Shown here: piece by piece, positions 4,524-34,031 of the stretch
Position numbering within the stretch: the stretch's first letter is position 1
How the letters are laid out: every line of letters starts with the position of its first letter
NCBI GenBank assembly: GCA_013138735.1
Contig: WTCE01000096.1
Location: forward strand, 1 to 34,031
Reading direction: 5' to 3'
DNA from: Crocinitomix sp.
GTDB lineage: Bacteria; Bacteroidota; Bacteroidia; Flavobacteriales_D; Crocinitomicaceae
DNA: 34,031 bases
Position numbers and translations under genes: made by a program
Notes under the pieces: generated by a model
Databases searched by the model: none
Told to the model about the DNA's origin: nothing
The model's input: the letters and a program-made list of their open reading frames with translations, nothing else

Positions 4524-4544
4524 TAACGGTTAAAAAAAATTAAG

Positions 4545-4579
4545 AATGGCGTCTAATTTTAAATTAGGCGCCATTTTTT
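4545..4579 (+). terminator. Rho-independent terminator of glycine-rich copy 1
   Basis: A 15-bp arm (4545-4559) pairs with 4561-4575 through one G-T wobble, around a GGCGYC core, and runs into a T-tract. It lies 22 bases after the stop codon. Very similar hairpins follow the other two paralogues. Confidence 0.85.
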
Positions 4580-4848
4580 GTGCTTTCATAACTGCACATA
4601 CTGGATTTAAAGCGTAAACATTTATCCGTATAAACACGGATACATTCAGCATATTGACAGAACAACGTCGAATTCAAACTACTCAAAAAATCTCACATTT
4701 CAACGCTACAAGTCAGCCTGTTAAGAATTTAACGTTTAGTTTTCAGAACCTTTATTTAGATCACAACTCCAAAAGATAAGTAGGTTAAAACACTGGTGTT
4801 CAGTCAAAATTTATTATATTCACTCAAACCGATTTAAATTTAAACGAT
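4580..4848 (+). other. Intergenic region upstream of glycine-rich copy 2
   Basis: No gene seen. A 7-bp inverted repeat, TATCCGT (4623-4629) and ACGGATA (4636-4642), is present. TATATTCA at 4815-4822 lies 26 bases before the next ATG and could be a weak -7 element. Nothing else stands out. Confidence 0.3.
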
Positions 4849-7227: not shown

Positions 7228-7246
7228 TAACATTTAAATTTTTAAG

Positions 7247-7279
7247 AAAGGCGCCTAATTTAATTGGGCGCCTTTTTTT
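7247..7279 (+). terminator. Rho-independent terminator of glycine-rich copy 2
   Basis: A 14-bp arm with a GGCGCC core (7247-7260) pairs with 7262-7275 through one G-T wobble, followed by a run of seven T. It sits 19 bases after the stop codon and resembles the terminators at 4545 and 9300. Confidence 0.85.
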
Positions 7280-7378
7280 ATGCCATTATTTCATTGTAAA
7301 ACAATTAGTTAAGAACGAAAATTAAGTGGCATACCTCGATACTTTTCACTATATTTAGATACAACTAACAATTCTACT

Positions 7379-16400: not shown

Positions 16401-16811
16401 ATGAAAAATATAACCATACTCTATATCGTCGCGCTTTGCATTAGCATTATTCTGCCTTTCATAGTTTTCGAACGCTTTACGAACGCAGACAAAGAATTCT
16501 TTTTTTATTACACAATCACAGTAATCACTTATACAGCTGCAGCTATTTCCATAATTTTGAAAGAAGGTTATAGCAGAACATTTCTCCTCCCTTTCTTTAG
16601 TGTTTTTGTCTTTATCTTCTCGGGATTTCATCTTGTTATTACAATTCTGATCGTCTTATTGGATGTTTCATATCACTTAGATCGGAGTAATGGCTTTTTT
16701 ATTCTAATTGCATTATTTCAGTTGGGATTCTGCATTTTAGCGATAAAGCATATCCGTCCTCAAAAAATTGAAAACCTTGAACATAAATTAGATGATCCGT
16801 ATGAATTTTAA
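16401..16811 (+). CDS. Four-helix small membrane protein, duplicated module A1
   Basis: 136 residues with four predicted membrane helices and a polar tail (HIRPQKIENLEHKLDD). It is a close paralogue of the gene at 17294: the first 15 codons and the last 25 or so are nearly identical. It forms the first half of a two-gene unit repeated in tandem at a spacing of 893 bases. No known family recognised. The role is unknown; small size and repetition suggest a rapidly changing accessory membrane function. Confidence 0.65.
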   Translation: MKNITILYIVALCISIILPFIVFERFTNADKEFFFYYTITVITYTAAAISIILKEGYSRTFLLPFFSVFVFIFSGFHLVITILIVLLDVSYHLDRSNGFFILIALFQLGFCILAIKHIRPQKIENLEHKLDDPYEF

Positions 16812-16919
16812 TCGGTAGTCAGTTGATGGAACGCAGATGACGCAGATAAAGCAGATTTTCGCTGATTTTTTTTTATGAATCGCGATAGCTCGAAAATTTA
16901 AATAAGAAAAGCCAAACAG
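16750..16919 (+). repeat. Direct repeat, copy 1 (tail of module A gene plus GCAGAT-rich spacer)
   Basis: This segment is repeated almost base for base at 17643-17811. Its core, 16828-16885, is an imperfect GCAGAT repeat (ACGCAGATGACGCAGATAAA, then GCAGATTTTCGCTGAT and a T-run). I recall similar dispersed GCAGAT elements in many bacterial genomes; this is from memory and unverified. Confidence 0.85.
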
Positions 16920-17297
16920 ATGAGAGAAATTACCGTTATATACATTATTACATTGGCTGTAAACATCATCTTTCCATTCGTATTTTTGGATTGGGACATT
17001 TGGGATTGGGAAGGTTCAGGTGCAAGATATTTTTGGTTCACAACCAGTGTTCAGTTTCTTGTTATTCTCTTAACTTTTATTGGGAAGAAACGTGGCCCAC
17101 TAGCTTTCTTGCAATTATGTACGCTAATCATGGCCATTATTAATTTCTTGTTTCTGCTCTTTTTCTTTCTTTTACAAAACGATTTTGAAGGGGGGTACGC
17201 GCATCAATATATCCTATTCATGCTCTTGCAACTTGCGGTTTTCTCACTCTCTATTTATCATACAACTAAAAACAGTAACAAATCTAAATCACAATGA
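16920..17297 (+). CDS. Four-helix small membrane protein, duplicated module B1
   Basis: 125 residues, four predicted membrane helices, with a polar tail rich in Ser, Asn and Lys. It starts directly after the GCAGAT spacer with MREITVIYII, matching MRPITIIYIL of the gene at 17812. Its stop overlaps the start of the next gene (ATGA at 17294-17297), which suggests translational coupling. The body resembles the module A proteins only loosely. Function unknown. Confidence 0.6.
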   Translation: MREITVIYIITLAVNIIFPFVFLDWDIWDWEGSGARYFWFTTSVQFLVILLTFIGKKRGPLAFLQLCTLIMAIINFLFLLFFFLLQNDFEGGYAHQYILFMLLQLAVFSLSIYHTTKNSNKSKSQ

Positions 17298-17704
17298 AAA
17301 ATACAACCGTACTCTATATTGTCGCGCTTTGCATTAGCATTTGTCTTCCATTTATAGTGGTTGATGACTTTGTTCACGCAGATCAAGAATTGTTCATGTA
17401 TTACTATATAACAATTGCCATCTATTTATTGGCAATAATTTCCGCCTGTTTAAAGGAAGGGAACACCAAAGAGGCTTTACTCCCATTATTCAGCTTTTTC
17501 ACAATGTTATCTTCGGGGTTTCATTCTCTTCTCGCGCTTCTTGTACTTTTCTTAGGTGTTGCTCGATATTTAGATCACGATAATTTCTTCTTTATAATTC
17601 TTGCGTTGCTCCAACTAGCACTCTGCTTTTTGGCCATTAAACATATCCGTCCTCAAAAAAGTGAAAACCTTGAACATAAATTAGATGATCCGCATGAATT
17701 TTAA
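17294..17704 (+). CDS. Four-helix small membrane protein, duplicated module A2
   Basis: 136 residues, the same length as module A1. It begins MKNTTVLYIVALCISI and ends HIRPQKSENLEHKLDDPHEF, against MKNITILYIVALCISI and HIRPQKIENLEHKLDDPYEF in A1. The middle has diverged in residues but keeps the helix pattern. It overlaps the preceding gene by four bases. The paralogue pair and the shared flanking DNA show a tandem duplication of about 893 bases. Function unknown. Confidence 0.65.
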   Translation: MKNTTVLYIVALCISICLPFIVVDDFVHADQELFMYYYITIAIYLLAIISACLKEGNTKEALLPLFSFFTMLSSGFHSLLALLVLFLGVARYLDHDNFFFIILALLQLALCFLAIKHIRPQKSENLEHKLDDPHEF

Positions 17705-17811
17705 TCAGTAGTCAGTCAATGGAACGCAGATGACGCAGATAAAGCAGATTTTCGCTGATTTTTTTTATGAATAGCAATAGCTCGAAAATTTAAATAAGAA
17801 AAGGCAAACAG
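17643..17811 (+). repeat. Direct repeat, copy 2 (tail of module A gene plus GCAGAT-rich spacer)
   Basis: Second copy of the segment at 16750-16919, with a few substitutions and a T-run one base shorter. The GCAGAT-rich core lies at about 17721-17777 and ends just before the next start codon. Confidence 0.85.
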
Positions 17812-18204
17812 ATGAGACCAATTACAATAATCTATATCCTCGCGCTGTGCATTAGCATCTGCGGGTTGTTTATTCTGGCGGTATTCGCTTTCCTACCAAC
17901 TAGATTTTGTTTATACAGCTTTGGTATTGTCATACTTTACGCAACTGCGACAATCATTGCCTGCATCAAAAACAAAAAAATTAAACGCTTCTATTTACCC
18001 ATTTTAAGCTACTTCATTCTTATCTCTGCGGTAATACATGTTATTCTATTAATCACACTACTTGCATCAGGACACGCAGGATATTTAGGTTATACTCACG
18101 CCCCCCTTACTTATTATCAAATAACACTTTGCATTCTGTCTGCTAAGCATATTCTCCCTCAAAAAAGTGAATCACTTAAATCCAATCTTGATGATGAATT
18201 TTGA
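17812..18204 (+). CDS. Small membrane protein, duplicated module B2 (chimeric)
   Basis: 130 residues, four predicted membrane helices. Its leader and first codons (MRPITIIYI) match module B1, but the next residues (LALCISIC) and the C-terminal tail (SAKHILPQKSE...LDDEF) match the module A proteins. It therefore looks like a recombinant of the two paralogues. The stop overlaps the start of the next gene. Function unknown. Confidence 0.6.
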   Translation: MRPITIIYILALCISICGLFILAVFAFLPTRFCLYSFGIVILYATATIIACIKNKKIKRFYLPILSYFILISAVIHVILLITLLASGHAGYLGYTHAPLTYYQITLCILSAKHILPQKSESLKSNLDDEF

Positions 18205-21973: not shown

Positions 21974-22291
21974 TTAATCTTTTTTAGGTTCTGAATTTTG
22001 TGCTGGTTGATTCGTTGTTGCTACGCGATATCCAATCATGATTGGAAGTCCTAATAAACAAACAACTAATAATAATATCCCTTTTAAGGTTGGCCCAACA
22101 GAGGTTAAGCGATCCAAGGAAACACTTTCTGGCAAAGCGCTTCTATCTAAAAAAGCTTTTAACGAGACATCAATAGGATAAGTAGATGTTGTCTCCACAA
22201 TTTCTGCCTCAAAAATGGCCGCATCATAGAAATAAAAAAAAGCAGTAAATAGTAATACTGCCACTGCCGAATATCCAATTATCTTATTCAT
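21974..22291 (-). CDS. Small two-helix membrane protein
   Basis: 105 residues with membrane helices at about 5-23 and 70-90 and an intervening loop of 45 residues, with a polar tail. No family recognised. It precedes the M42 peptidase with a two-base gap and so should be co-translated with it. It has its own probable promoter upstream, making it the likely first gene of this operon. Confidence 0.65.
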   Translation of the reverse strand: MNKIIGYSAVAVLLFTAFFYFYDAAIFEAEIVETTSTYPIDVSLKAFLDRSALPESVSLDRLTSVGPTLKGILLLVVCLLGLPIMIGYRVATTNQPAQNSEPKKD

Positions 22292-22325
22292 ATATTTTGT
22301 AAATTCCCGATCATATTATTGGCAA

Positions 22326-22360
22326 TAAAGATAGTAACCTGAGCTCGATTATTCGTCAAA
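22326..22360 (-). promoter_or_regulatory. Possible promoter of the M42 peptidase operon
   Basis: On the minus strand, TTTG (plus 22357-22360), 23 bases, TATCTTTA (plus 22326-22333), one mismatch from TAnnTTTG, 34 bases before the ATG at 22291. Confidence 0.35.
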
Positions 22361-22368
22361 TAAACTTT

Positions 22369-23355
22369 TTATTGATTATTGTGTTGACCACCTTCTCTCC
22401 TATTCGTGTTTTGCTCGAGCAGCCGCGCACTTAAATTGTAAAAATCAGCTTCCTTTCCATACCCTTTTTCTTGCCAGAATTGGGCTAGATTTTTATAACG
22501 GTAAATTTCATCAATACCTAAGCCCTGAGAAACTTTCAATAAATCAAGCGGGCAAAGGTAAACTGGCTTAGCGTCTGTCTCATCTAGATGGTTAGAACCA
22601 TTCATGACACACTCATAATCAACACAATGTGTGATGCCGAAAATATGACCCAATTCGTGAGAAGCTACTTTTAAGGTTCGCTTTAAACATAAATCAAATT
22701 GAGTTGAATCTAGGTCCGGAAATCCAAATCTTGCAATGGAATAGATACCAACCTTCCCGCCTACTCTCCCTTGTCCAAACACAAAATTGTATTGGTCACT
22801 CGGATATAAATCATAAGCCGTAAACCCCATATATGCTCGCGCATCATCTGGTATATTTGGTGTCAAAATTTCATCCATGATATAGGTCGTTTGCAACTGC
22901 TCTGTTCCATCAACACTTAAGCGTCTGTTTTCTGCAGGAACTTCATCCGCTGAAACAGCATCCATTATGGCAACATCCACACTGTAAAACACCTTAAGAT
23001 ATTCAGCCGTAATTGTTATAATTTCCGTTTGTTTAACCGTAAACGCTCCTATTGGTTGAATGTATATTTTGTTTCTTTTTTTTTCCAAAATATTGGGGTA
23101 AACATATAAAAATTCATGCGGAAATTGTTGTGCTTCTTGATTGTGAAATAACCATTCGCCTGGAATAGGGTTGGATTTTAAATGCTGAACAGTATCTAAG
23201 CTACTTTCCAAATATCTCAAGTGATCTTTTAATTCTTTTGGGATGACAGCGACTTCTTGATCTGGTTTATTTTCCGACTTGAATAATTGCGAAACGCCAA
23301 TTCCTATTATCAATCCAAGAACTAGCAGTAGGCTATATGAGATCCACTTTTTCAT
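22369..23355 (-). CDS. Membrane-anchored archaemetzincin-like metalloprotease
   Basis: 328 residues. An N-terminal hydrophobic segment (5-24) works as an anchor or signal peptide. The zinc motif HELGHIFGITHC (233-244) followed by Cys249, Met251 and Cys268 matches the archaemetzincin signature HExxHxxGxxHC-x4-C-x-M...C. The expected fourth Cys of the closing CxxC is Asp271 instead, and the Met-to-Cys spacing is one residue short of the usual 17. Glu234 is the catalytic base. Archaemetzincins are usually soluble and intracellular, so an exported member of this length is unusual. It starts 37 bases after the thioredoxin-like lipoprotein stop, perhaps in one transcript. Proteolysis outside the cytoplasm is inferred. 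Confidence 0.88.
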   Translation of the reverse strand: MKKWISYSLLLVLGLIIGIGVSQLFKSENKPDQEVAVIPKELKDHLRYLESSLDTVQHLKSNPIPGEWLFHNQEAQQFPHEFLYVYPNILEKKRNKIYIQPIGAFTVKQTEIITITAEYLKVFYSVDVAIMDAVSADEVPAENRRLSVDGTEQLQTTYIMDEILTPNIPDDARAYMGFTAYDLYPSDQYNFVFGQGRVGGKVGIYSIARFGFPDLDSTQFDLCLKRTLKVASHELGHIFGITHCVDYECVMNGSNHLDETDAKPVYLCPLDLLKVSQGLGIDEIYRYKNLAQFWQEKGYGKEADFYNLSARLLEQNTNRREGGQHNNQ

Positions 23356-23392
23356 TCTTTAAATTTAGGAAATTATAGTTTGTACTTGCTCC

Positions 23393-24445
23393 TTAATTTG
23401 ATTTTTTGAAATTTGACAAGCCTTCTTCTAGCCAAGCACGATATAACTCAGCACTGCCATGACTTCTGATAGTCGCTATATCCTCGACTAGAGATTCATT
23501 GTTATAATTTATAATGTCAAATATGGGTTGAGTTTCTATTCCGTATCTTTCAATTTCATAATTTGTCCAATATTCTCCATAAGTTCTCACGGAATCATAA
23601 TCCCTTAAATTTGTTATCACAGAACGATCATCCAAAAAAAGAGACACGATAAGAAATTCATCTCTCAAAATTGGATAGACGAGAGAGTCTGGCCAAATAT
23701 CAAATTCAAACTTGTCATAACCGACACAATTATACCCTGTAAAATAGAGCAACACAGGCTTATTATCCCATGCGCTATATGCTAAAGCTTTTTTAAAATC
23801 GACATTGCTTAGAACTTTGTACTCATCAAATTCCAATGTATCGTTTGTAGCATCATCATATTGCGACTGCTGTTTATTTTTCTTTTCAAAATTCAGAAGT
23901 CCTTCATGAAGCCATTGCTCAAATGAAACCGGCGAAGAACTGCTATAGTTCATTCGTTTACTCACTAATGATTCGTTATCAAAATTCACAATATCGCAAA
24001 ACGGAGTTTCGAATACACCATAACGTTCAGTTTGATAGGACTTCCACATTTCAGATTTTGGCTCTATGACAGTATCACCGGTAGCTTTAATAAGTCTATA
24101 AGTCGACCGATCATCTGACTTAATCTCAAATATTGTGAATTGATTTTTTAAGATTGTAAGAACTACTTGGTTGGATAAAATTCGATCTTCAAAATAACGA
24201 GAATTTACACTTCCATCTGCTGTATAATAAACGAAAACTGGACGATTATCGACTTTGGTACTGCGCAAATCGAAATTCTCGAGTTTCCAAGGGTCATCAA
24301 TTATAGTAATATCTAGATCTTTATACTTTTGGGTTTCTTCTAGAATAGTAATGTTCTCCGAATCAGATATCGAAGAATTAGTTTCACCGCAACCGAAAAA
24401 AATTCCGGTTGCAATGAAACAAATTAAATAATGTTTAATTTTCAC
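23393..24445 (-). CDS. Lipoprotein with two degenerate thioredoxin-like domains
   Basis: 350 residues. A lipobox IFFGC gives Cys19 lipidation. Two related halves follow, about 45-190 and 205-350. Each carries a RPVFVYYT or KPVLLYFT strand, an active-site-like stretch, an IFEIKSDDRS or VSLFLDDRS strand, a WKSYQTERYG or WTNYEIERYG segment before the cis-proline strand (TPFCDI, QPIFDI), and an EQWLHEGLLNF or RAWLEEGLSNF end. This is the pattern of the thioredoxin-like domain found at the C-terminus of DsbD proteins in Bacteroidota. The CXXC is gone: Ser79-Val-Asn-Ser82 in the first half, Cys240-Val-Gly-Tyr243 in the second. It is therefore not an ordinary disulfide reductase; a binding or chaperone role is possible. 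Confidence 0.82.
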   Translation of the reverse strand: MKIKHYLICFIATGIFFGCGETNSSISDSENITILEETQKYKDLDITIIDDPWKLENFDLRSTKVDNRPVFVYYTADGSVNSRYFEDRILSNQVVLTILKNQFTIFEIKSDDRSTYRLIKATGDTVIEPKSEMWKSYQTERYGVFETPFCDIVNFDNESLVSKRMNYSSSSPVSFEQWLHEGLLNFEKKNKQQSQYDDATNDTLEFDEYKVLSNVDFKKALAYSAWDNKPVLLYFTGYNCVGYDKFEFDIWPDSLVYPILRDEFLIVSLFLDDRSVITNLRDYDSVRTYGEYWTNYEIERYGIETQPIFDIINYNNESLVEDIATIRSHGSAELYRAWLEEGLSNFKKSN

Positions 24446-24491
24446 TTGCTATTTAATATCGTGTGTTTGAAATAGAAAATTCGAGTTCAAG

Positions 24492-24550
24492 GCTTGTGCA
24501 GTCCATAAATTGTGCGTTTACTTTTGTAAACAATCAATTTATGGGCAAGC
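24492..24550. repeat. Long interrupted inverted repeat
   Basis: Three nested arm pairs share one axis: GCTTG/CAAGC (24492-24496, 24546-24550), CCATAAATTG/CAATTTATGG (24503-24512, 24535-24544) and GTTTAC/GTAAAC (24516-24521, 24526-24531). It lies between the bacilliredoxin stop and the lipoprotein start. No T-run follows directly on either strand, so it is not a standard terminator. Confidence 0.7.
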
Positions 24551-24586
24551 GTAACGCAGAAATCGGATTTTTTAGTCAAACACTAA

Positions 24587-24997
24587 CTAGCAGTACTCGT
24601 CAAAAGCCATAGCCAAGTTTTCAGCAATCATTTCAGCTGATCTTCCTTCGATATGATGTCTTTCAATAAAGTGAACCAAAGTTCCGTCTTTAAACAAAGC
24701 GATTGATGGAGAAGATGCAGGGTAAGGCAAGGTATATTTTCTTGCTTGATTCACCGCTTCACCATCTACACCAGCAAAAACAGTTACCATACTACTTGGT
24801 AATTTATTGTGTTTTGTCGATAAAATAACTCCTGGACGCATAGTCCCAGCAGCACAGCCACAAACTGAATTAATCACACACAACGTTGTGCCTTCTGCAC
24901 TGATTGCTCCGTCAACAGCTTCTGCTGATTCTAAACTTGTAAATCCCGCTTCAACCAATTGGCCTTTCATGGGACTTGTTAATTCTACTGGATACAT
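24587..24997 (-). CDS. Bacilliredoxin, BrxA/BrxB family
   Basis: 136 residues from the ATG at 24997 (MYPVELTSPM, the usual start of the family; an in-frame extension to 25045 has no support). The thioredoxin-like protein carries the Cys46-Gly-Cys48 motif in SVCGCAAG and the typical RPG and C-terminal FDEYC endings. In Firmicutes this family removes bacillithiol from S-bacillithiolated proteins; it also occurs in Bacteroidota, some of which make bacillithiol. A cytoplasmic role in thiol repair after oxidation is expected. It appears monocistronic. Confidence 0.95.
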   Translation of the reverse strand: MYPVELTSPMKGQLVEAGFTSLESAEAVDGAISAEGTTLCVINSVCGCAAGTMRPGVILSTKHNKLPSSMVTVFAGVDGEAVNQARKYTLPYPASSPSIALFKDGTLVHFIERHHIEGRSAEMIAENLAMAFDEYC

Positions 24998-25040
24998 TCT
25001 TTTATATTTTAATTTAATAATTAATCTTAAAGCCTCTTGG

Positions 25041-25061
25041 ATCAAAACTTTCTATTTTGAT
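25041..25061. promoter_or_regulatory. Inverted repeat upstream of the bacilliredoxin gene
   Basis: ATCAAAA (25041-25047) and TTTTGAT (25055-25061) form a perfect 7-7-7 inverted repeat 44 bases upstream of the bacilliredoxin ATG. It shares the pattern TCAAA-N9-TTTGA with the repeat at 13294-13314, so it could be an operator. Confidence 0.35.
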
Positions 25062-25174
25062 AACAAGAAACGCTTAACAAAGTTGCACATAATTTAGCGA
25101 AGTCTTTTTGTTTGGACTCAGAATTTCAACACATTATCCTATTTTCACTATAAAATAGTCGTTTAAACACGCAA

Positions 25175-26206
25175 TCAGTTGTGAAATCGTTCAATATTCA
25201 CCTCTGGATCTAAGGCATCATCATTAAACACATGGTTGAGTAATTGATTGGCATAATACGGTGCAATCATCACTCCTTTTGCACCAAGCCCATTAAAAAC
25301 TATTGCATTTTTTTGAGTAGAATGAATCCCAAGCAAAGGCCTGCGGTCTTTAACATTTGGACGAATACCTGCTAAATGGGCAACAATTTTATAATCAAAA
25401 TTTGTAAAAGCGGCCAACCTTTCTACCAAATTTTGTTTCCCCTCTTCAGTAGTAATTGGTTTGTCGAGTTCCCAATTATAAGTAGCCCCTACATTATATT
25501 TATTGCCTTCAACATGTGTGAGAAACATATTTCTATTGAGGGTATGCAAAAATTTAAGATCGGAAGTTTCAATCATTAATGTTTCACCATGCGTTGGTTT
25601 AAAAGGCAAATCCGAAAAAAGTGGGTTTTGTTTGACCCCCATCCCTTCACAAAAGAAAAACCGAGCAGAATCATTGATCGTATTGTAATCAAATACCTCA
25701 TCATAAAATTCGAGGCCTTTTTCAAGAAAAAATGCTTTTGAGGCGTCCAAAAACTTATTCGTATCCAGGTTCCCAAATGTATTTACTTTACCGATCCCAA
25801 AAGGATAATTAACGAATTTTTCATCCGGTAATTCTTCCTTATTTGGCGTTGTCAAATAAGCACTAAATCGATCATCACCTTCTTTTGAATTCCAATTATT
25901 CTCCTCTTCTATGGAAGCAAAAACACGATAAATACTTTTATGTGAAATTAATTTCACACTCAATTCCTGCTCAATTCTCGTATAAAATTTTTGAGCGGCT
26001 GGCAGTAATAAATCAGCATTCCAACTTTTGGTTAGGCGTTTAAAGACGATTGGGTTTACCATACCGGCAGCAACGCGGGTAGTATGATTTGACAACGAGT
26101 CAAAAACCGAAAACGTCCGATTTTCAAAATAAAGCTGCCAAGACAATACTGCCCCAGCTAATCCCCATCCAATAATTACGTTTTTGTTCTCCCTGTTGCC
26201 TTCCAT
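25175..26206 (-). CDS. FAD-dependent oxidoreductase of the D-amino-acid/glycine oxidase fold
   Basis: 343 residues. The FAD-binding GxGxxG is Gly13-Trp-Gly15-Leu-Ala-Gly18, followed by a second-strand acidic residue in FSVFDS. AAGMVNPIVFKRLTKSW (46-62) and the C-terminal AGIRPNVKDRRPLLGIH and FNGLGAKGVMIAPYYA stretches are typical of the DAO superfamily, related to the oxidase half of MnmC. I recall close relatives as common single genes in Flavobacteria. The substrate is unknown. It lies 61 bases after mvdD in the same direction but has its own consensus promoter in that gap, so it is probably a housekeeping neighbour rather than a graspetide tailoring enzyme. Confidence 0.88.
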   Translation of the reverse strand: MEGNRENKNVIIGWGLAGAVLSWQLYFENRTFSVFDSLSNHTTRVAAGMVNPIVFKRLTKSWNADLLLPAAQKFYTRIEQELSVKLISHKSIYRVFASIEEENNWNSKEGDDRFSAYLTTPNKEELPDEKFVNYPFGIGKVNTFGNLDTNKFLDASKAFFLEKGLEFYDEVFDYNTINDSARFFFCEGMGVKQNPLFSDLPFKPTHGETLMIETSDLKFLHTLNRNMFLTHVEGNKYNVGATYNWELDKPITTEEGKQNLVERLAAFTNFDYKIVAHLAGIRPNVKDRRPLLGIHSTQKNAIVFNGLGAKGVMIAPYYANQLLNHVFNDDALDPEVNIERFHN

Positions 26207-26233
26207 TATTTATTGTACCTTTTGTTCCAAGCA

Positions 26234-26265
26234 CAAAGGTAACAATCTCAATTAAGGGTATGCAA
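26234..26265 (-). promoter_or_regulatory. Promoter of the FAD oxidoreductase gene
   Basis: On the minus strand, TTG (plus 26263-26265), 21 bases, then TACCTTTG (plus 26234-26241), an exact Bacteroidota -33/-7 arrangement, 28 bases before the ATG. Confidence 0.55.
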
Positions 26266-26267
26266 TT

Positions 26268-27314
26268 TTACACCAACCCTGAAGCCTCTAATTCATTCGT
26301 TGGAACATGAGGTACTGCAATTGACTCTTTTACTAATAGTGAAGCAATTTCATCAGATATCGCATAATTCGCCTCTTCATCCAGCCAAAAGAATTCTCCT
26401 CCGGGATTTGATTCTAAAAAAATGTATTCACCTTCAGGTGTTAGAATAACATCACTTGCGCCATAATTCAGGTTACACACCTCATGAAAACGAAGCAAAT
26501 TCGCTTTTAAATCATCAGGAATACTGCACGACTTCCAGTCGCCAATTGATTCTTGACCAACTTTTCTCCAGTCAATTTCCCCATCTTTTTTCAATTGAGA
26601 ATCGAGCGCTGCCGCAAAAACTCTTTTACCAATAATTGTAATTCGTAGCTCTAATTTTTTCTCTATTTTTTCCTGAAATTTCATTGGACATAAACGCAAT
26701 TGCGCTTCTAAATCTTCCAAATCAGCCTCTCCAATTTCATTCGTAAAAACTACGCTTTCTACTCCTTCTTCATAGATACTAAATGCATGTTGCATTTTTG
26801 CAATCACACCATTCGGACAGCTTTTAACAAAAGCTTTTACCTGTTCAAAATCATTTGAAATACATGTTCTTGGAATTGTTAGTCCACATTGATCAGCAAT
26901 TCTTAATTGTTTTTCTTTAATGCCTGATCGTTTATTTTCGGAATAGGAATTTAACGTGAATAATTCGTGCTCCAAATGACTCAACATACCAATTAGAGTA
27001 GCATTAGACTCACCAATACTACTATTCAAATATTTTTTTTCCAATACTTCTTCTAAACAACTTCCTAAATTATAGATCCTACGATTCCATAAACTTAAAA
27101 ATTCAGTGGTAAGATTATGAACCGCTCCGTCATTATCAGCTAATAGAATTTCCCATTTACCCTTATTAAACAATGTAGTTATTCTATAATCAATAGGATA
27201 ACGATCAACATTTAATCGGACTACCTGTCCTCCTTTTCGTGCAATTGCCTCTGAAACCTTTTCCACACAAGGATTATCTTGCGTATGCGTGATGATCAAT
27301 ACTTTATTTTTCAT
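26268..27314 (-). CDS. mvdD: MvdD-like ATP-grasp ligase, graspetide ester-forming
   Basis: 348 residues from the ATG at 27314; the reading extends three codons to a TTG that is less likely. ATP-grasp enzyme of the microviridin family: an N-terminal domain (VLIITHTQDNPCVEKV), a central domain with VIAKMQHAFSIYEEG, the CPMKFQEKIEKKLELRITIIG strand pair (the Glu and Arg contact ATP and peptide), and the metal site FLESNPGGEFFWLDE about 20 residues into the last 54. GEFFWL near the C-terminus is the form I associate with MvdD/MdnC, which closes the two omega-ester rings on Thr and Ser using ATP. The start overlaps the mvdC end by 11 bases. Confidence in the family is high; the ester/amide division is from memory of characterised homologues. 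Confidence 0.93.
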   Translation of the reverse strand: MKNKVLIITHTQDNPCVEKVSEAIARKGGQVVRLNVDRYPIDYRITTLFNKGKWEILLADNDGAVHNLTTEFLSLWNRRIYNLGSCLEEVLEKKYLNSSIGESNATLIGMLSHLEHELFTLNSYSENKRSGIKEKQLRIADQCGLTIPRTCISNDFEQVKAFVKSCPNGVIAKMQHAFSIYEEGVESVVFTNEIGEADLEDLEAQLRLCPMKFQEKIEKKLELRITIIGKRVFAAALDSQLKKDGEIDWRKVGQESIGDWKSCSIPDDLKANLLRFHEVCNLNYGASDVILTPEGEYIFLESNPGGEFFWLDEEANYAISDEIASLLVKESIAVPHVPTNELEASGLV

Positions 27315-28293
27315 AATTTTCAATTCTATTTAATAATGTTTTTGCAATGGTAGCAGCAATTGGATACCCCAATTCTTTTTCTAACATCCCCCATTCTCCG
27401 GAAGGGTTTACTTCGAGAAAAACATATTCACCATTTGGCTGGCAAATCACGTCTATTGCCCCAAAACTGAGCTCAAACCGCTTCATCAATTCATCAATTT
27501 TTTTAACCTCCGCAATTGGTAATTCATAAGGCGCCCAAAACGTCACCTTATTTTCTGAATATCTCCAATCTTGTTTGCCCTTATCAGATTTTGACGCATC
27601 TATTTTACCGGTAAAACATTTACCCTCGATATAAGCAATGCGTAATTCATATGCCTTTGGAATATTATTTTGAAAAATCATTGGACAACAAGAAAGTGTA
27701 TCTTCCAATAATTCTAAATTTTCTTCATTAATTTGTGTTGTAGGAAAGAACCGTTCACCGGCACCCATAGAAAAACTTAAGGAATTTTGAAGTTTCGCTA
27801 TTATATTTCCGTCATGTTTCGCGTAAAATTGTTTCACACTTTCAAAATCACTTGTTATTATTGTATCCGGAGTTAACAAGCCAACTTCTTTAGCTTGGCA
27901 AAGTTGGTCAAATTTGTTTCCCTCTATCTTTCGCGCTTTCGACAATACATTTATACAAGGTGCTTGTTTTTCCAATAATTGAAAAAAACTTGATAGCGTT
28001 GTATTTATTTCTCCCCCCACATTAGCTCTATAATCAGCAGCAATTTCATCTAAAATACGGGGTTGCCATATTTTCCGAAACCACACTCCAGAAACTTCTG
28101 AAAGCTTAAAGCTAAATGCTTTTGAAGAAACGACAACCTCACTACCATTATCATCCAACGTACTTACAATTGACAAGTCTGTGAGGAAATCATCTGTATT
28201 GATCCGTAGTGCTTTTATATTATTTTGTGAAAAATAAGCCATTACATTATCAATGGTGTACAGATCATTACTATGTGTAATACACAATATCAT
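27304..28293 (-). CDS. mvdC: MvdC-like ATP-grasp ligase, graspetide amide-forming
   Basis: 329 residues. Paralogue of the next gene, with the same three ATP-grasp subdomains: MILCITHSNDLYTIDNV at the start, the GVWFRKIWQPR stretch near 70-80, IIAKLQNSLSFSMG, CCPMIFQNNIPKAYELRIAYI, and the metal site EVNPSGEWGMLEKELGYPI (294-312). VWFRKIWQP and GEWGMLE are the form I associate with MvdC/MdnB, which makes the omega-amide between Lys and Glu after the ester rings are closed. Its start lies 117 bases from the end of the second precursor, with a strong hairpin between. A start-codon remnant of this gene lies at 28770-28802. Confidence 0.93.
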   Translation of the reverse strand: MILCITHSNDLYTIDNVMAYFSQNNIKALRINTDDFLTDLSIVSTLDDNGSEVVVSSKAFSFKLSEVSGVWFRKIWQPRILDEIAADYRANVGGEINTTLSSFFQLLEKQAPCINVLSKARKIEGNKFDQLCQAKEVGLLTPDTIITSDFESVKQFYAKHDGNIIAKLQNSLSFSMGAGERFFPTTQINEENLELLEDTLSCCPMIFQNNIPKAYELRIAYIEGKCFTGKIDASKSDKGKQDWRYSENKVTFWAPYELPIAEVKKIDELMKRFELSFGAIDVICQPNGEYVFLEVNPSGEWGMLEKELGYPIAATIAKTLLNRIENYEK

Positions 28294-28341
28294 AAATTAG
28301 AATAGTTGGGGTAAATTTGTTCTTGCATTATAATTGGAACA

Positions 28342-28389
28342 ATAAAAAGTGAACACTTGACAACATACGTAATGTTGTTCCAAGTGCTC
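28342..28389 (-). terminator. Hairpin terminator or attenuator between the second precursor and mvdC
   Basis: On the minus strand a 9-bp arm (GAGCACTTG, one wobble) and a 7-bp inner arm (ACAACAT) close a 5-base loop, with a small bulge, and a T-rich tract follows. It lies 21 bases after the precursor stop. Partial read-through would give more precursor than enzyme message. Confidence 0.7.
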
Positions 28390-28409
28390 AACTAATTCAT
28401 CAATAAATT

Positions 28410-28604
28410 CTATGCCTCATCAGAATCTGAAGGATACTTCATAGTCATGGCTTCATCCGCATCTGACGGATATTTCATTGTTTGAAAAGTATCAAGGGCA
28501 GGCTTAGTTATCTTGTTTTCCTTTCCTCCTTTAAGATCACTGTCTTCTTTTACTTGTTTTTCCAAGAATTTTGCGAAAAACGGGACTTGTTTTTGATTTT
28601 TCAT
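28410..28604 (-). CDS. Graspetide (microviridin-type) precursor peptide, two cores, copy 2
   Basis: 64 residues. The leader carries PFFAKFLEKQ (8-17), the helix by which microviridin leaders bind their ATP-grasp enzymes. A Gly-Gly at 26-27 follows, then two cores, TMKYPSDADE (42-51) and TMKYPSDSDE (54-63). By analogy with microviridin, each core would carry Thr-Asp (T42-D48, T54-D60) and Ser-Asp (S47-D50, S59-D62) esters and a Lys-Glu amide (K44-E51, K56-E63). The product is likely a serine-protease inhibitor by family precedent, but the target is unknown. It is adjacent to mvdC and has its own promoter. Too small for many gene finders but certain by motif. Confidence 0.93.
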   Translation of the reverse strand: MKNQKQVPFFAKFLEKQVKEDSDLKGGKENKITKPALDTFQTMKYPSDADEAMTMKYPSDSDEA

Positions 28605-28650
28605 CTTTTCTTTTTTTCTAAATGTGTTATTATTAATTTATTTTCAGTTA

Positions 28651-28658
28651 CAAATTTA
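28651..28658 (-). promoter_or_regulatory. -7 promoter element of the second precursor
   Basis: TAAATTTG on the minus strand, an exact TAnnTTTG match, 46 bases before the precursor ATG. The -33 part is only weakly TTG-like. Confidence 0.4.
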
Positions 28659-28769
28659 GAGCAGTTCTTTGTTAAAACTTTGGGCAACTTTTGAATCTGA
28701 GGTCCGAATTGCTGAAATGTCACTTTGAGTTGCTAAAGGTTAAATGATAAATGTTCTGTAATGAATTCC

Positions 28770-28802
28770 AAACTCATTATTATGCATAGTACATAATATC
28801 AT
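28770..28802 (-). pseudogene. Start-codon remnant of mvdC
   Basis: Downstream of the first precursor, an ATG followed by codons for MILCTMHNNEF matches the mvdC start MILCITHSNDL base for base at most positions over about 33 bases, and the upstream spacer matches too. The frame ends at a stop after 20 codons. It marks the breakpoint of a tandem duplication of precursor plus mvdC start. Confidence 0.7.
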
Positions 28803-28863
28803 AAATCAAGCAAGAATAGATGCGTGGTGAATTTTGTTGCGATTTTTAATAGGGACAAAAAAG

Positions 28864-28909
28864 AAAAAGTGAGCACTTGATAACATAATTAATCTTGCTT
28901 CAAGCGCTC
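28864..28909 (-). terminator. Hairpin terminator after the first precursor
   Basis: A 9-bp stem (GAGCGCTTG with GAGCACTTG of the other arm, one mismatch or wobble) closes a long AT-rich loop and is followed on the minus strand by a T-rich run. It is the degenerate counterpart of the hairpin at 28342-28389. Confidence 0.55.
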
Positions 28910-28929
28910 AACTAATTCATCAATAAATT

Positions 28930-29115
28930 TTAGATCTCATCAGAATCTGAAGGATACTTCATAGTTTGATGCTCATCCGAATCAGACGGATATTTCAACG
29001 TGTGAAAAATATCCAACTTTGGTTTGGTTATCTTCCCTCCTTTAAGATCGTTGTCTTCTTTTAATTGTTTTTCTAGAAATTTCGCGAAAAACGGAACTTG
29101 TTTTTGATTTTTCAT
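28930..29115 (-). CDS. Graspetide (microviridin-type) precursor peptide, two cores, copy 1
   Basis: 61 residues; paralogue of the peptide at 28410. The leader MKNQKQVPFFAKFLEKQ is identical, followed by DLKGGK with a Gly-Gly at 25-26. The cores are TLKYPSDSDE (39-48) and TMKYPSDSDE (51-60), with one linker residue pair different from copy 2. Predicted rings are as in the other peptide (T39-D45, S44-D47, K41-E48; T51-D57, S56-D59, K53-E60). The Gly-Gly would suit a C39-type protease, but none is in the window. It is the first gene of the cluster in transcription order, 66 bases after the comF-like gene ends. Confidence 0.93.
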   Translation of the reverse strand: MKNQKQVPFFAKFLEKQLKEDNDLKGGKITKPKLDIFHTLKYPSDSDEHQTMKYPSDSDEI

Positions 29116-29172
29116 CTATTGATTTTTTGGATTAAATTAATTACTTAAAATTACACTTTTTTTCTTTCAAAA

Positions 29173-29199
29173 CAAATTAAATCACACTCGAGCTGCCAA
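29173..29199 (-). promoter_or_regulatory. Possible promoter of the graspetide cluster
   Basis: On the minus strand, TTG (plus 29197-29199), 16 bases, TTAATTTG (plus 29173-29180), one mismatch from TAnnTTTG, at the end of the comF-like gene and 57 bases before the first precursor. Confidence 0.3.
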
Positions 29200-29880
29200 G
29201 GTAGCAACACTAACTGTACAGTTTTCAACTTTCAACAATGCTAAGATGCAAGCTTCAATGGTTGCACCAGTAGTTAGAACATCATCAACTAACAGCACAT
29301 GTTTGTTTTCCAATTGTTTACTTTGCTTCACCGAAAAAATTTGTCGCACATTATCCCACCGATCATATTTAGAAAACTTGGTTTGCGAAAGGTTGTGAGC
29401 ATTGCGAATGAGACAGGTTTCGTTAATAGGAATGTTTGTTTTATTCGCTATACCATCAGCAATTACGCGGCTTTGATTAAAACCTCTTAATCTTTGTTTT
29501 TTAGGATGCAAAGGCACGGGTAATATGGCGTGAATCTTATCTGGCTCTGTAATTACTTCTGCCAATACTTCTCCAAAATATTGGCCCAATTTCTTTTTTT
29601 CTTTGTATTTTAATAGATGTAAAAGCCTTTGCGTTTGGTTACCGCGTTGATAATTCAATAAACTATAAATGCGCTGCACCTCTACCCGCCCCCAAAATAG
29701 TTTTTCTAATTTTTGTAACTCTTTTTTATTTTGACCGATATAGGGTAAATCATATGCACATGACAAACAGACATGTTGTTCATTCATGTTTAAATCTGTG
29801 TTACAAATTTGGCAAATATTGGGATAAAAGACGTCCAAAAACGCCCCACTTATTGTGCGGAATTGATTGGCTACACTCAT
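29182..29880 (-). CDS. ComF family phosphoribosyltransferase-like protein
   Basis: 232 residues. An N-terminal zinc finger is formed by Cys23, Cys26, Cys38 and Cys41 (PNICQIC, HVCLSC). A type I phosphoribosyltransferase domain follows, with LPVPLHPKKQRLRGFNQS and the PRPP loop VLLVDDVLTTGAT (about 195-207). This is the ComF layout; in naturally transformable bacteria ComF supports DNA uptake or single-strand handling. Its start is 488 bases from nrdB on the other strand. It ends 66 bases before the first graspetide precursor, with no obvious terminator between. Confidence 0.93.
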   Translation of the reverse strand: MSVANQFRTISGAFLDVFYPNICQICNTDLNMNEQHVCLSCAYDLPYIGQNKKELQKLEKLFWGRVEVQRIYSLLNYQRGNQTQRLLHLLKYKEKKKLGQYFGEVLAEVITEPDKIHAILPVPLHPKKQRLRGFNQSRVIADGIANKTNIPINETCLIRNAHNLSQTKFSKYDRWDNVRQIFSVKQSKQLENKHVLLVDDVLTTGATIEACILALLKVENCTVSVATLAARV

Positions 29881-30368
29881 ATAGTCATTTATTTTTGTTT
29901 TGGGTAATTAAATATAAGAATAGTTTTTCAACATTTCATGGTTTATAGATAAAATAGATTTTACTTGATTCACACATGAGAACAGTCGTAAATTGTAAGT
30001 CCGTTTGGACGAGTTAATTAGAAAAAATTGAGCGTTGAACATTTGTTAATAAATTACTGTTACTTGTTCGAAATTATTTTTTTACGAATGAATCAACCAA
30101 CATAGCAAATAAGACGTCTCTCTTGATTATCAACAAGTTAAGACTTATTAAAAAAACTAATTGTTGAAAACTATAAGTAGATTGTGAATTAAATAAGATA
30201 GGTTCTTCGATAAAAAATCGCAACTTTTGTAGTCCGATTTAAAACCGTTGAATTTTTCAAATTTTTGACAAGCGAAATCGGGGAAAAGAGCAAGAAAATT
30301 GAGTATAAACACCTAAGCTCCCACTAGGTGTAAGTAGACCAACTAATTAGAACAAAAAAAGACTTAAA
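29881..30368. other. Long divergent intergenic region upstream of nrdB
   Basis: 488 bases, strongly AT-rich, between comF (minus) and nrdB (plus). No gene is supported. It must contain both promoters. The only structured element I see is the inverted repeat at 30309-30331. Confidence 0.35.
30309..30331 (+). promoter_or_regulatory. Inverted repeat upstream of nrdB
   Basis: ACACCTA (30309-30315) and TAGGTGT (30325-30331) are perfect arms around nine bases, 38 bases before the nrdB ATG. The right arm overlaps a weak -7-like TAGGTGTA, with a TTG 23 bases upstream. An operator or 5' leader hairpin is possible. It does not match the NrdR box I know. Confidence 0.4.
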
Positions 30369-31346
30369 ATGGCAGAAGCAATAGAACCGATTTTAGTGAA
30401 GAACAACGAACGATTCGTGTTGTTCCCAATCGAACACAATGATATCTGGCAATTTTATAAAAAAGCTGAAGCTAGTTTTTGGACTGCAGAAGAAATTGAT
30501 TTATCACAAGATTTAATTGATTGGAATGAAAAATTATCGGATGATGAGCAACATTTCATCAAACACATTTTAGCATTTTTTGCTGCTTCTGATGGAATTG
30601 TAAATGAAAACTTAGCTGAGAACTTTCTTTCAGAAGTTCAATATACTGAAGCAAAGTTCTTTTATGGATTTCAAATTACAATTGAAAACATTCATTCTGA
30701 AACATACTCTTTGTTGATTGATACTTATATCAGAGACGACAAAGAGAAAAAATATTTATTCAATGCTGTTGACACTATTCCGTGTGTTAAGACAAAAGCA
30801 GATTGGGCTTTAAGATGGATCGACGAAGGTACATATGCAGAGCGCTTAATTGCTTTTGCTGCCGTTGAAGGAATTTTCTTTTCTGGTTCATTTTGTTCCA
30901 TTTTCTGGTTAAAGAAACGTGGACTAATGCCAGGATTAAGCTTTTCAAACGAATTAATTTCGCGAGATGAAGGACTTCACTGTGACTTCGCTTGCTTACT
31001 ATACAATGACCACTTGATCAATCAATTACCGAAGGAAACCGTTACAAAAATCATCACAGATGCTGTGGAAATAGAAAAAGAGTTTGTAACTGATGCGATA
31101 CCGGTTAAATTGATAGGAATGAATGCAGATTTAATGCAGCAATATATCGAATTTGTGGCGGATCGATTGTTAGGTGAGTTAGGATGTGCATCAGTATACA
31201 ACTCAACAAATCCATTTGATTTTATGGACATGATTAGTATTCAGGGAAAAACAAATTTCTTTGAAAAACGTGTTGCAGAATATCAAAAAGCCGGAGTATT
31301 AAACAGTGGAGAGAATCAATCATTCTCACTAGACGAAGATTTCTAG
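30369..31346 (+). CDS. nrdB: Ribonucleotide reductase class Ia, small (R2) subunit
   Basis: 325 residues. The di-iron R2 protein makes the tyrosyl radical used by NrdA to reduce ribonucleotides for DNA synthesis. Seen: Asp44 (EEIDLSQD); Glu106 and His109 with radical Tyr113 in [12 protein letters not shown]; the second Glu/His set in [11 protein letters not shown] and [10 protein letters not shown]; and the C-terminal tail SLDEDF that docks on R1. The sequence is of the eukaryote-like type common in Bacteroidota. It is followed by nrdA 84 bases downstream, with two small hairpins between. Confidence 0.97.
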
Positions 31347-31358
31347 AAAAAAATTAAC

Positions 31359-31399
31359 AAGTATTTAAAACCCCAATACTTCACCCTGCCAACAGGTGA
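31359..31399 (+). other. Two small hairpins between nrdB and nrdA
   Basis: AAGTATT (31359-31365) pairs with AATACTT (31375-31381), and TCACC (31381-31385) pairs with GGTGA (31395-31399), sharing one base. No T-run follows, so transcript processing or stability is more likely than termination. Confidence 0.4.
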
Positions 31400-31430
31400 C
31401 GTATTACACAAAAAAAACCAAGGACGCACT

Positions 31431-33797
31431 ATGTATGTAATTAAAAGAGATGGTCGCAAAGAGCCAGTCAAATTTGACAAAATCACGGCCCGCGTAAAAA
31501 AATTATGTTACGGCTTAAGCCCAATTGTTCAACCAGAGTTGGTTGCAATGAAAGTTATTGAAGGACTTTATGATGGCGTAAGTACGTATGAGTTAGATAA
31601 CCTAGCTGCTGAAGTTTCAGCATCAAAAACAATTGAACATCCGGATTATGCTTTATTAGCATCACGTATTTCAGTTTCAAACCTTCACAAGAACACAAAG
31701 AAATCATTTTCTGATACAGTAGAAGATCTTTACCATTACATTGACCCAATTACTGGAGACAACGCTTCATTAATTGCTGATGATGTTTACAAAATCATTA
31801 AAGATAATTCAGAGTATTTTGATTCACACATCATTTATGATCGTGATTTCAAATATGACTTTTTTGGTTTCAAAACATTAGAAAGAGCATACTTATTAAA
31901 AATTAACAATAAAATTGTTGAGCGTCCTCAACATATGTTAATGCGTGTTTCTGTTGGGATTCACAAAGATGATCTTGAATCTGCTGTTAAGACATACAAT
32001 GCAATGTCTCAAGGTTGGTTTACACATGCTACACCAACTTTATTTAACGCAGGAACTCCTAAGCCACAAATGTCATCTTGCTTTTTATTGCAAATGAAAG
32101 ACGACAGTATTGAGGGCATATACGATACATTAAAACAATGTGCACGTATTTCTCAATCAGCTGGTGGAATTGGATTATCTATCCACGACATTCGTGCAAA
32201 AGGTTCTTACATTAAAGGAACAAACGGAACATCAAATGGTATTGTACCTATGTTGCGTGTATTTAATGATACAGCAAGATATGTTGATCAAGGTGGCGGA
32301 AAAAGAAAAGGTTCTTTCGCTATTTATGTAGAACCATGGCATGCAGATATTTTTGACTTCTTAGATTTAAAGAAAAATCATGGTAAAGAAGAGCAACGTG
32401 CTAGAGATTTATTCTATGCAATGTGGGTTCCAGATTTATTCATGAAAAGAGTTGAAGAAAATGGAGAGTGGACATTAATGTGTCCAAATGAGTGCCCAGG
32501 ATTATCTGACGCTTATGGAGACGATTTCGATAAATTGTATTTAAAATACGAAGCAGAAGGCAGAGGAAGAAAAACAATTAAAGCACAAGATGTTTGGTTT
32601 AAGATTTTAGAATCTCAAATTGAAACAGGTACACCATACATGGTTTATAAAGATGCGGCGAACTTAAAGTCGAATCAGAAGAATTTGGGAACAATCAAAT
32701 CTTCAAACTTGTGTACTGAAATTTTGGAATACACTGCACCAGATGAAGTTGCTGTATGTAACTTAGGTTCTTTGGCATTACCAAAATATGTTAATGCTGA
32801 AACAAGAACATTTGATCATGACAAGTTGTTTGAGATGGCTTACCACTTAACGGTAAACTTGAACCGCGTAATTGATCAAAACTACTACCCTGTAATAGAA
32901 GCTGAAAACTCTAACAAACGTCACCGTCCAATTGGAATTGGTGTACAAGGATTAGCTGATGCTTACATCTTAATGCGCATGCCATTTGATTCGGAAGAAG
33001 CAAGCACATTGAACAAGGAAATTTTTGAAACCATTTATTATGCTGCAGTTACTGCATCAAAAGATTTGGCAATCAAAGAAGGCCCTTACCAAAGTATTGA
33101 AGGATCACCAATCTCTAAAGGTGAATTCCAGTTTGATATGTGGGATGTTAAACCTTCAAGCAGATGGGAATGGGATATTTTGAGAGAAGAAGTTAAAGAG
33201 CACGGTGTTAGAAATTCATTATTATTAGCTCCAATGCCAACAGCTTCTACAGCTCAAATCCTTGGAAACAACGAATGCTTTGAACCATATACGTCTAACA
33301 TTTATACAAGACGTGTACTTTCAGGTGAGTTTATCATTGTAAACAAGCACTTATTAAAGGATTTAGCGAAGTTAAACCTTTGGGATTCAAATATGAAGAA
33401 CAAATTAATGGCTTCAAACGGATCAATTCAAAACATTAATGAGATTCCACAAGACATTAAGGATCTTTATAAAACAGCATGGGAAATTTCTCAAAAAGTA
33501 TTGATTAATCAAGCGGCTGATCGTGGTGCATTTATTTGCCAATCACAATCATTGAACTTGTTTATGGAAAATGCCAACTTTGCGAAATTAACTTCAATGC
33601 ATTTTTACGGATGGAAAGCAGGTTTGAAAACAGGTATGTATTACTTGAGAACGAAAGCTGCAACAGACGCTATTAAATTTACATTGGACAAAGAAGCAGT
33701 TGCTGCACCTATTGTTGCAAAAACAGAAGAAGAAAGAATTGCTGAAATCGCATGTTCTTTGGATGATCCAGATAACTGTGAGATGTGCAGTGGCTAA
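31431..33797 (+). CDS. nrdA: Ribonucleotide reductase class Ia, large (R1) subunit
   Basis: 788 residues. The catalytic subunit reduces ribonucleoside diphosphates to deoxynucleotides. Domains in order: an ATP-cone allosteric domain (1-90, starting [17 protein letters not shown]); then the R1 barrel with redox Cys217 (SSCFLL) and Cys443 (CNLGS), the active-site NLCTE (Asn426, Cys428, Glu430), and the radical-transfer tyrosines in MYYLR (737-738); and the C-terminal CEMC (783-786) that reloads the active-site disulfide through thioredoxin. All key residues are present and the length is usual for the eukaryote-like type. Its partner nrdB lies directly upstream and the two are probably co-transcribed. 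Confidence 0.97.
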
Positions 33798-33903
33798 GAA
33801 ACCGGGCATTTCGAGAGCCTCAATGTCCTATAGTTTAATAGAACAAACGTGAGGATATGTGCTCCTGATAGCTATCGGGAGGCTAAGAAACCGGGCATTT
33901 CGA
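33792..33903 (+). repeat. Direct repeat pair with a palindrome after nrdA
   Basis: The 23 bases from GGCTAAGAAACC at 33792-33814 recur at 33881-33903, 89 bases later; the first copy contains the nrdA stop codon. Just before the second copy, 33862-33881 is a palindrome (CTCCTGATAG / CTATCGGGAG) with one T-G pair. I recall GATAGCTATC palindromes as frequent intergenic repeats in Flavobacteria, unverified. Confidence 0.75.
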
Positions 33904-34031
33904 TACTTCGACAGGCCATTAGATTAGCAATTCATAAAATTAAGATGATTTATTGATGTTATAAGGAGGGGGTTCTAGGGGGAGACTCATAACTCGATTA
34001 TTTTGTTAATAACTTGACCCGCATATATTTA
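33904..34031. other. Right-edge intergenic sequence
   Basis: No gene is seen before the window ends. GATACTTCGACAGGC after the repeat at about 33901 resembles dispersed intergenic repeats of this phylum. A short purine-rich run lies at 33964-33987. Confidence 0.25.

Follow-up and report, generated by a model that had tools for sequence, protein, structure and literature searches.

We analyzed a 34,031-nucleotide stretch of a Crocinitomix sp. genome (assembly GCA_013138735.1, contig WTCE01000096.1), hereafter the window, and found a cluster of four genes that probably directs the synthesis of a chryseoviridin/microviridin-type graspetide, a protease inhibitor that would carry seven rings and be released in one piece. 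The cluster adds to a known graspetide family and is not a new class. All four genes lie on the minus strand and are transcribed in the order precursor 1 (28930..29115, 61 residues), precursor 2 (28410..28604, 64 residues), an MvdC/MdnB-type ATP-grasp ligase (27304..28293, 329 residues), predicted to form lactams, and an MvdD/MdnC/CdnC-type ATP-grasp ligase (26268..27314, 348 residues), predicted to form esters. The four reading frames are intact and the two ligase genes overlap by 11 bases; the coordinates of the MvdD-type ligase refer to its ATG start, the open reading frame (ORF) of 351 residues listed for it starting at an upstream TTG. A previous sequence-only reading had placed two precursors and two ATP-grasp ligases here and had proposed that they form a graspetide cluster of the microviridin type in which both precursors are bicore. 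The position of the genes was borne out, and the family is supported by precursor models, ligase hidden Markov models (HMMs), solved structures and a tree.

We examined the precursors with curated models and by motif reading. With NF033738 (microviridin/marinostatin, cut-off 26 bits) and Inhibitor_I10 (PF12559, cut-off 21 bits), precursor 1 scored 72.9 and 40.3 bits and precursor 2 scored 68.6 and 43.2 bits. Since both models scored over their cut-offs, the identity of the precursors is not a matter of chance. As already recognized for the PFFAKFLEKQ leader and the two cores by the sequence-only reading, each peptide has the leader motif VPFFAKFLEKQ and a pair of TxKYPSDxDE cores, which correspond to the PFFAxFLE leader helix and the TxKYPSDx(D/E)(D/E) core of microviridin-type (group 1) precursors. 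In precursor 1, the double-glycine (GG) site is followed by TKPKLD and by the cores TLKYPSDSDE and TMKYPSDSDE, and in precursor 2 by TKPALD and the cores TMKYPSDADE and TMKYPSDSDE; the sequences after the GG motif are KITKPKLDIFHTLKYPSDSDEHQTMKYPSDSDEI and KENKITKPALDTFQTMKYPSDADEAMTMKYPSDSDEA. The GG motif is single in each precursor and lies ahead of all predicted rings, the core motifs are separated by two residues, and the donor and acceptor residues for esters and amides are present in all four cores. Two consecutive cores after a GG site are the arrangement of class II microviridins, and among the 24 precursors compared, precursors with two cores were also observed at L022, L025, L026, L037 and L041. 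In an uncultured Saprospirales (L021:4835-5200), two small peptides with the leader motif precede the ligases, one with the single core TMKAPSDQDE and the other ending in an incomplete TMKTPS.

A further element, TKPxLD, precedes core 1 in both precursors; like the GG motif, the 3' hairpins and the mvdC remnant described below, it is not mentioned in the sequence-only reading. A structural study of CdnC (Zhao and others 2021) reportedly describes macrocycles of five or six residues ahead of a microviridin-like core. The motif TxxxxDxxxTxKxPSDxD[DE], given as conserved in chryseoviridin (class III) precursors in a passage of PMC8939145, has an exact match in both window precursors (TKPKLDIFHTLKYPSDSDE and TKPALDTFQTMKYPSDADE). 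Because TKPxLD ahead of core 1 completes this motif, the number of dehydrations that we predict for each precursor is seven: TKPxLD accounts for one and each core for three. The six waters expected before, at three per core, are probably one too few, while the family and the cores on which that count was based hold. Among the 24 precursors, T-x4-D lies two to three residues ahead of a core in 14, from three lineages (both window copies, G467 and 11 precursors found in six f16 genomes that belong to one genus), and it is missing from that position in the other ten (L021 (two), L022, L023 (three), L024, L025, L026 and L041). The G467 precursor (L037) has T-x4-D ahead of each of its two cores, and the order ring-cage-cage was observed only in the two window precursors, which combine class II and class III microviridin features.

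The ligases were assigned from HMM scores, solved structures and a tree. The MvdC-type ligase scored 352.2 bits with TIGR04185 versus 235.9 with TIGR04184, and the MvdD-type ligase scored 364.6 bits with TIGR04184 versus 258.1 with TIGR04185. The nearest solved structure was AMdnB for the former (7m4s, 244 bits; next 5ig8, 208) and CdnC for the latter (7mgv, 281 bits; next 5ig9, 203); by this match the ester ligase, whose catalysis is predicted, is CdnC-like as in chryseoviridin systems. The tree contained 30 rows (14 C-type, 13 D-type and three grasp-with-spasm ligases from the same genome), after one cut row was dropped. The D-type rows formed one clade (support 99/97), and within each group the window ligase was placed with G467 and the f16 genomes, at moderate support values of 89/86 and 90/90. 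Ligases falling outside the MvdC/MvdD groups had been named as the result that would speak against the family; both fell on their respective sides of the tree, and the best models and the tree sides agree on the paired MvdC- and MvdD-type ligases of the microviridin type. Other ATP-grasp families (RimK, glutathione synthase, grasp-with-spasm) were rejected, with scores far below those for MvdC/MvdD, and a grasp-with-spasm identity was also rejected from the separate clade formed by the three such ligases of the genome. These belong to loci on other contigs (L038:5746-7980, L039:7511-9715 and L040:7597-9777), each with an ATP-grasp ligase and a SPASM maturase, all six proteins scoring over the NCBIfam cut-offs; by eye, a small GG-containing ORF lies beside each locus.

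We propose the following route to the product. A hairpin 3' of each precursor may stop most transcripts and leave precursor in excess of enzyme: the 3' regions of precursor 1 (28803..28929, minimum free energy (MFE) −21.8 kcal/mol, z −3.95) and of precursor 2, ahead of the ligase genes (28294..28409, MFE −23.3 kcal/mol, z −4.54), both on the minus strand, each contain a T-run preceded by a long hairpin with an imperfect stem. The leader helix PFFAKFLEKQ would recruit the MvdD/CdnC-type ligase, which would close the esters (T-D in TKPxLD, and T-D plus S-D in each TxKYPSDxDE core), and the MvdC-type ligase would then form one K-E amide in each core. AMdnC is described in part of PMC5934393 as modifying three cores within one precursor. 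The seven rings expected per precursor (−7 H2O) would give computed monoisotopic masses of about 3879.89 and 4069.85 Da after GG cleavage. A GG-specific peptidase encoded elsewhere would remove the leader, yielding one peptide of 34 or 37 residues with two protease-binding cages. That this peptide is a class II/III hybrid, with one lactone and two tandem tricyclic cages, acting as a double-headed serine protease inhibitor, is a tentative reading.

Of the two modes of release considered in the sequence-only reading, the linked double-cage peptide is the likelier one and separately cut cores the less likely, because the only GG motif precedes all rings and just two residues lie between the core motifs. 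An additional cut between the cores, giving separate single-cage peptides, would be compatible with either ring count and seems quite improbable to us. The near-identity of the two cores would favor it, as would the several consecutive cores typical of class II microviridin precursors according to a passage of PMC13039773; the GG position and the two-residue spacing argue for the linked peptide, and no protease gene was seen in the insert that holds the cluster (see below).

Several points weigh against the seven-ring, one-piece account. For the whole chryseoviridin motif, a passage of PMC8939145 counts '3 lactone or lactam linkages', which is one under the four (three esters and the amide) needed per ring-plus-cage unit, and for this reason our confidence in the full account was lowered from high to moderate. 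The same count favors a plain class II microviridin precursor, with two cages only, six waters lost and TKPxLD as an unmodified spacer, and so do the ten precursors in which cages do without T-x4-D. We consider this alternative unlikely, as T-K-P-x-L-D is kept in both copies at its exact spacing while adjacent residues have changed, TKPSLD recurs ahead of a core in the distant G467 precursor, and CdnC is the nearest solved relative of the MvdD-type ligase. The seventh ring of the full account, or its amides, could fail, and family membership would be unaffected. Neither ligase reaches its NCBIfam equivalog cut-off (352.2 versus 425 bits and 364.6 versus 475 bits), and the same holds for the two other Bacteroidota pairs scanned, those of G467 (L037: 394 and 433 bits) and Ancylomarina (L025: 371 and 407 bits). 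The search against family models suggested earlier was thus passed by the precursors, while the ligases score best with the MvdC/MvdD models and stay below these cut-offs. The C-type clade is only moderately supported (77/83, recovered in 82% of 200 bootstrap trees). Rigid terminator scans detected no hairpin 3' of either window precursor, the stems being imperfect. Finally, the insert showed no gene for a GG peptidase or an exporter, and the four C39 matches of the genome, one of them on an open frame of 749 residues (C126), lie on three other contigs, none tied to the cluster. A C39-domain transporter often accompanies class II microviridin loci (PMC13039773, in part); none was found in the insert, and a feature present 'often' is not strictly defining. 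In relatives, a Pfam scan of part of the ORFs of L031, L037 and L025 detected no C39 or ABC transporter among the 14 neighboring ORFs covered (4, 5 and 5, respectively), and the membrane transporters seen beside the relatives' loci are sulphur types (Sulf_transp in L037, TauE in L025).

The residue at x of TxK, the predicted P1, is Met in three of the four cores and Leu in one. In the sections of PMC7823629 concerned, this residue (position 5) is essential to microviridin inhibition, the half-maximal inhibitory concentration against subtilisin is 0.09 μmol/L for microviridin L F5M and 5.8 for the wild type, and F5L improves elastase inhibition. Since F5L inhibits elastase better, the core with Leu may behave differently. 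Marinostatin consists of 12 residues and inhibits subtilisin with an inhibition constant (Ki) of 1.5 nM; its P4-P4' stretch is F-A-T-M-R-Y-P-S, Met being the P1 residue (PMC9623506, in part), and three of the four window cores have T-M-K-Y-P-S versus its T-M-R-Y-P-S. By analogy, the product, its P1 residue being Met or Leu, likely inhibits serine proteases of the subtilisin type. Because Met occupies the P1-equivalent position as in marinostatin and microviridin L F5M, a subtilisin-like protease is our first guess and probably the target; otherwise, elastase- or chymotrypsin-like serine proteases come into question.

A tandem duplication gave rise to the pair of precursor genes. The precursor units (29171 to 28774 versus 28654 to 28265) align over 374 columns, 318 of them identical, with a score of 356 versus a maximum of 38 in 200 single-base shuffles. 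The duplicated unit extends through the 3' hairpin into the first 29 bases of mvdC, and the homology ends inside this gene. The first mvdC codons were copied too, and their remnant lies at 28774..28802 (minus strand), matching the mvdC start at 24 of the 29 aligned positions. As this start belongs to the copied unit, the older order was probably precursor-mvdC-mvdD. Over 61 codons, the precursor pair has a synonymous divergence (dS) of 0.85 and a nonsynonymous divergence (dN) of 0.11 (0.03 in the leader and 0.19 after GG) and is under purifying selection. Core 2 (28936-28965 and its counterpart in precursor 2) is identical at 30/30 bases, the longest identical run in the alignment, in agreement with the earlier remark that the cores are almost the same. 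Such identity despite a dS of 0.85 hints at local gene conversion. The suggestion that the cluster may make one inhibitor in high amount fits these near-identical cores.

We also compared the hairpin between the last precursor and mvdC across 13 relative loci. A perfect-stem hairpin followed by a T-run was detected in 7/13 (L026, L031-L035 and L037), five of these seven coming from one genus, while the same detector found one in 3-6% of random stretches of the relative loci. No perfect-stem hairpin was found ahead of mvdC in the other six (L021-L025 and L036). Folding of the hairpin region in five chosen relatives gave z values from −2.5 to −6.3. Compared with about 400 nearby 60-mers, the hairpins of L025, L037 and L026 were in the lowest 2% (4, 8 and 2 folding as low), and those of L031 and L035 were not outstanding (38 and 57). 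A role of the hairpin as a conserved attenuator is thereby partly supported, and in a literature search touching on terminators we recognized nothing on a precursor-mvdC hairpin. Two TAnnTTTG boxes, one of them about 54 bases ahead of precursor 2, were found on the cluster strand versus 1.9 expected by shuffling, and 11 sigma-70-like sites versus 12.9 expected; the boxes give no evidence for promoters. An Rfam scan of positions 22000-34031 gave 0 matches.

The cluster lies in a gap of 2975 bases between comF and a flavin adenine dinucleotide (FAD) oxidoreductase gene. Both genes were found in seven of eight congeneric genomes and adjoin in all seven, with 15-71 bases between the matches; in the eighth genome, which is 67% complete, neither was found. 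At the six junctions inspected, the oxidoreductase reading frame starts close after the comF stop. In overlapping genome samples that each count the window's own genome, NF033738 matched this genome only in the family sample (200 genomes) and in the order sample (399 genomes), and it matched 5/396 genomes of the class and 8/395 of the phylum. Given the empty site in congeners and a precursor in its own genome alone among 399 of the order, the cluster was likely gained from elsewhere as an insert of about 3 kb, which is the simplest reading. The comparison pointed to no donor: among the relatives fetched, ligases of the same type are at best 36-47% identical. Base composition, tried as a sign of transfer, gives no support (cluster guanine-plus-cytosine content 32-37%, like the flanks). 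The precursor gene would have duplicated before or after the gain. A decaying or silent cluster, without product, would be in keeping with the rarity of the cluster in the order (1/399), the mvdC remnant between the precursors and the fact that no exporter was seen in the insert. We regard this as very improbable in view of the four intact frames, the dN of 0.11 versus a dS of 0.85, and the scanned neighboring ORFs of relatives, likewise without C39 or ABC transporters.

Elsewhere in the window, positions 22369-23355 encode an archaemetzincin-like metalloprotease (101 bits with NF033823, cut-off 145, yet over the Pfam cut-off for Peptidase_M54). By eye, 2622-9280 holds three large, mutually similar, glycine-rich and secreted-looking proteins with near-identical C-terminal ends resembling type IX sorting domains, and 16401-18204 holds a run of four small membrane-protein-like ORFs, alike among themselves.

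With the chryseoviridin (Cdn) systems of Chryseobacterium, the cluster has in common the leader motif, the GG site, a T-x4-D ahead of a cage core (motif from PMC8939145), more than one precursor and two ATP-grasp ligases, its D-type ligase being nearest to CdnC among solved structures. Unlike these systems, it has one T-x4-D (usually several there), two tandem cage cores (one there) and other flanking genes. The f16 loci resemble chryseoviridin systems and have the gene order precursors-MvdC-MvdD in common with the window; on either side of L031 lie genes for an epimerase (PF01370, 113 bits) and for an alpha/beta hydrolase (PF00561, 86 bits), the flanks named for chryseoviridin loci in a passage of PMC8939145. 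Several consecutive microviridin cores after one leader are also found in AMdnA of Anabaena PCC 7120 (class II multicore; PMC5934393, in part), unlike which the window precursors have TKPxLD ahead of core 1 and no C39 transporter was seen in the insert. The T-M-x-Y-P-S reactive-site stretch with Met at P1 is common to marinostatin (passage of PMC9623506); unlike marinostatin, the window has Lys for Arg and an MvdC-type ligase, so that a lactam is expected, and two cores per precursor. Overall, the ring-plus-cage graspetides, described from Chryseobacterium, gain a further lineage with this cluster, which is also a clear example of an entire peptide cluster carried by an insert of about 3 kb whose empty site is seen in congeners. 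Its precursors offer compact substrates for asking if a CdnC-like ligase can form both single rings and cages on the same chain.

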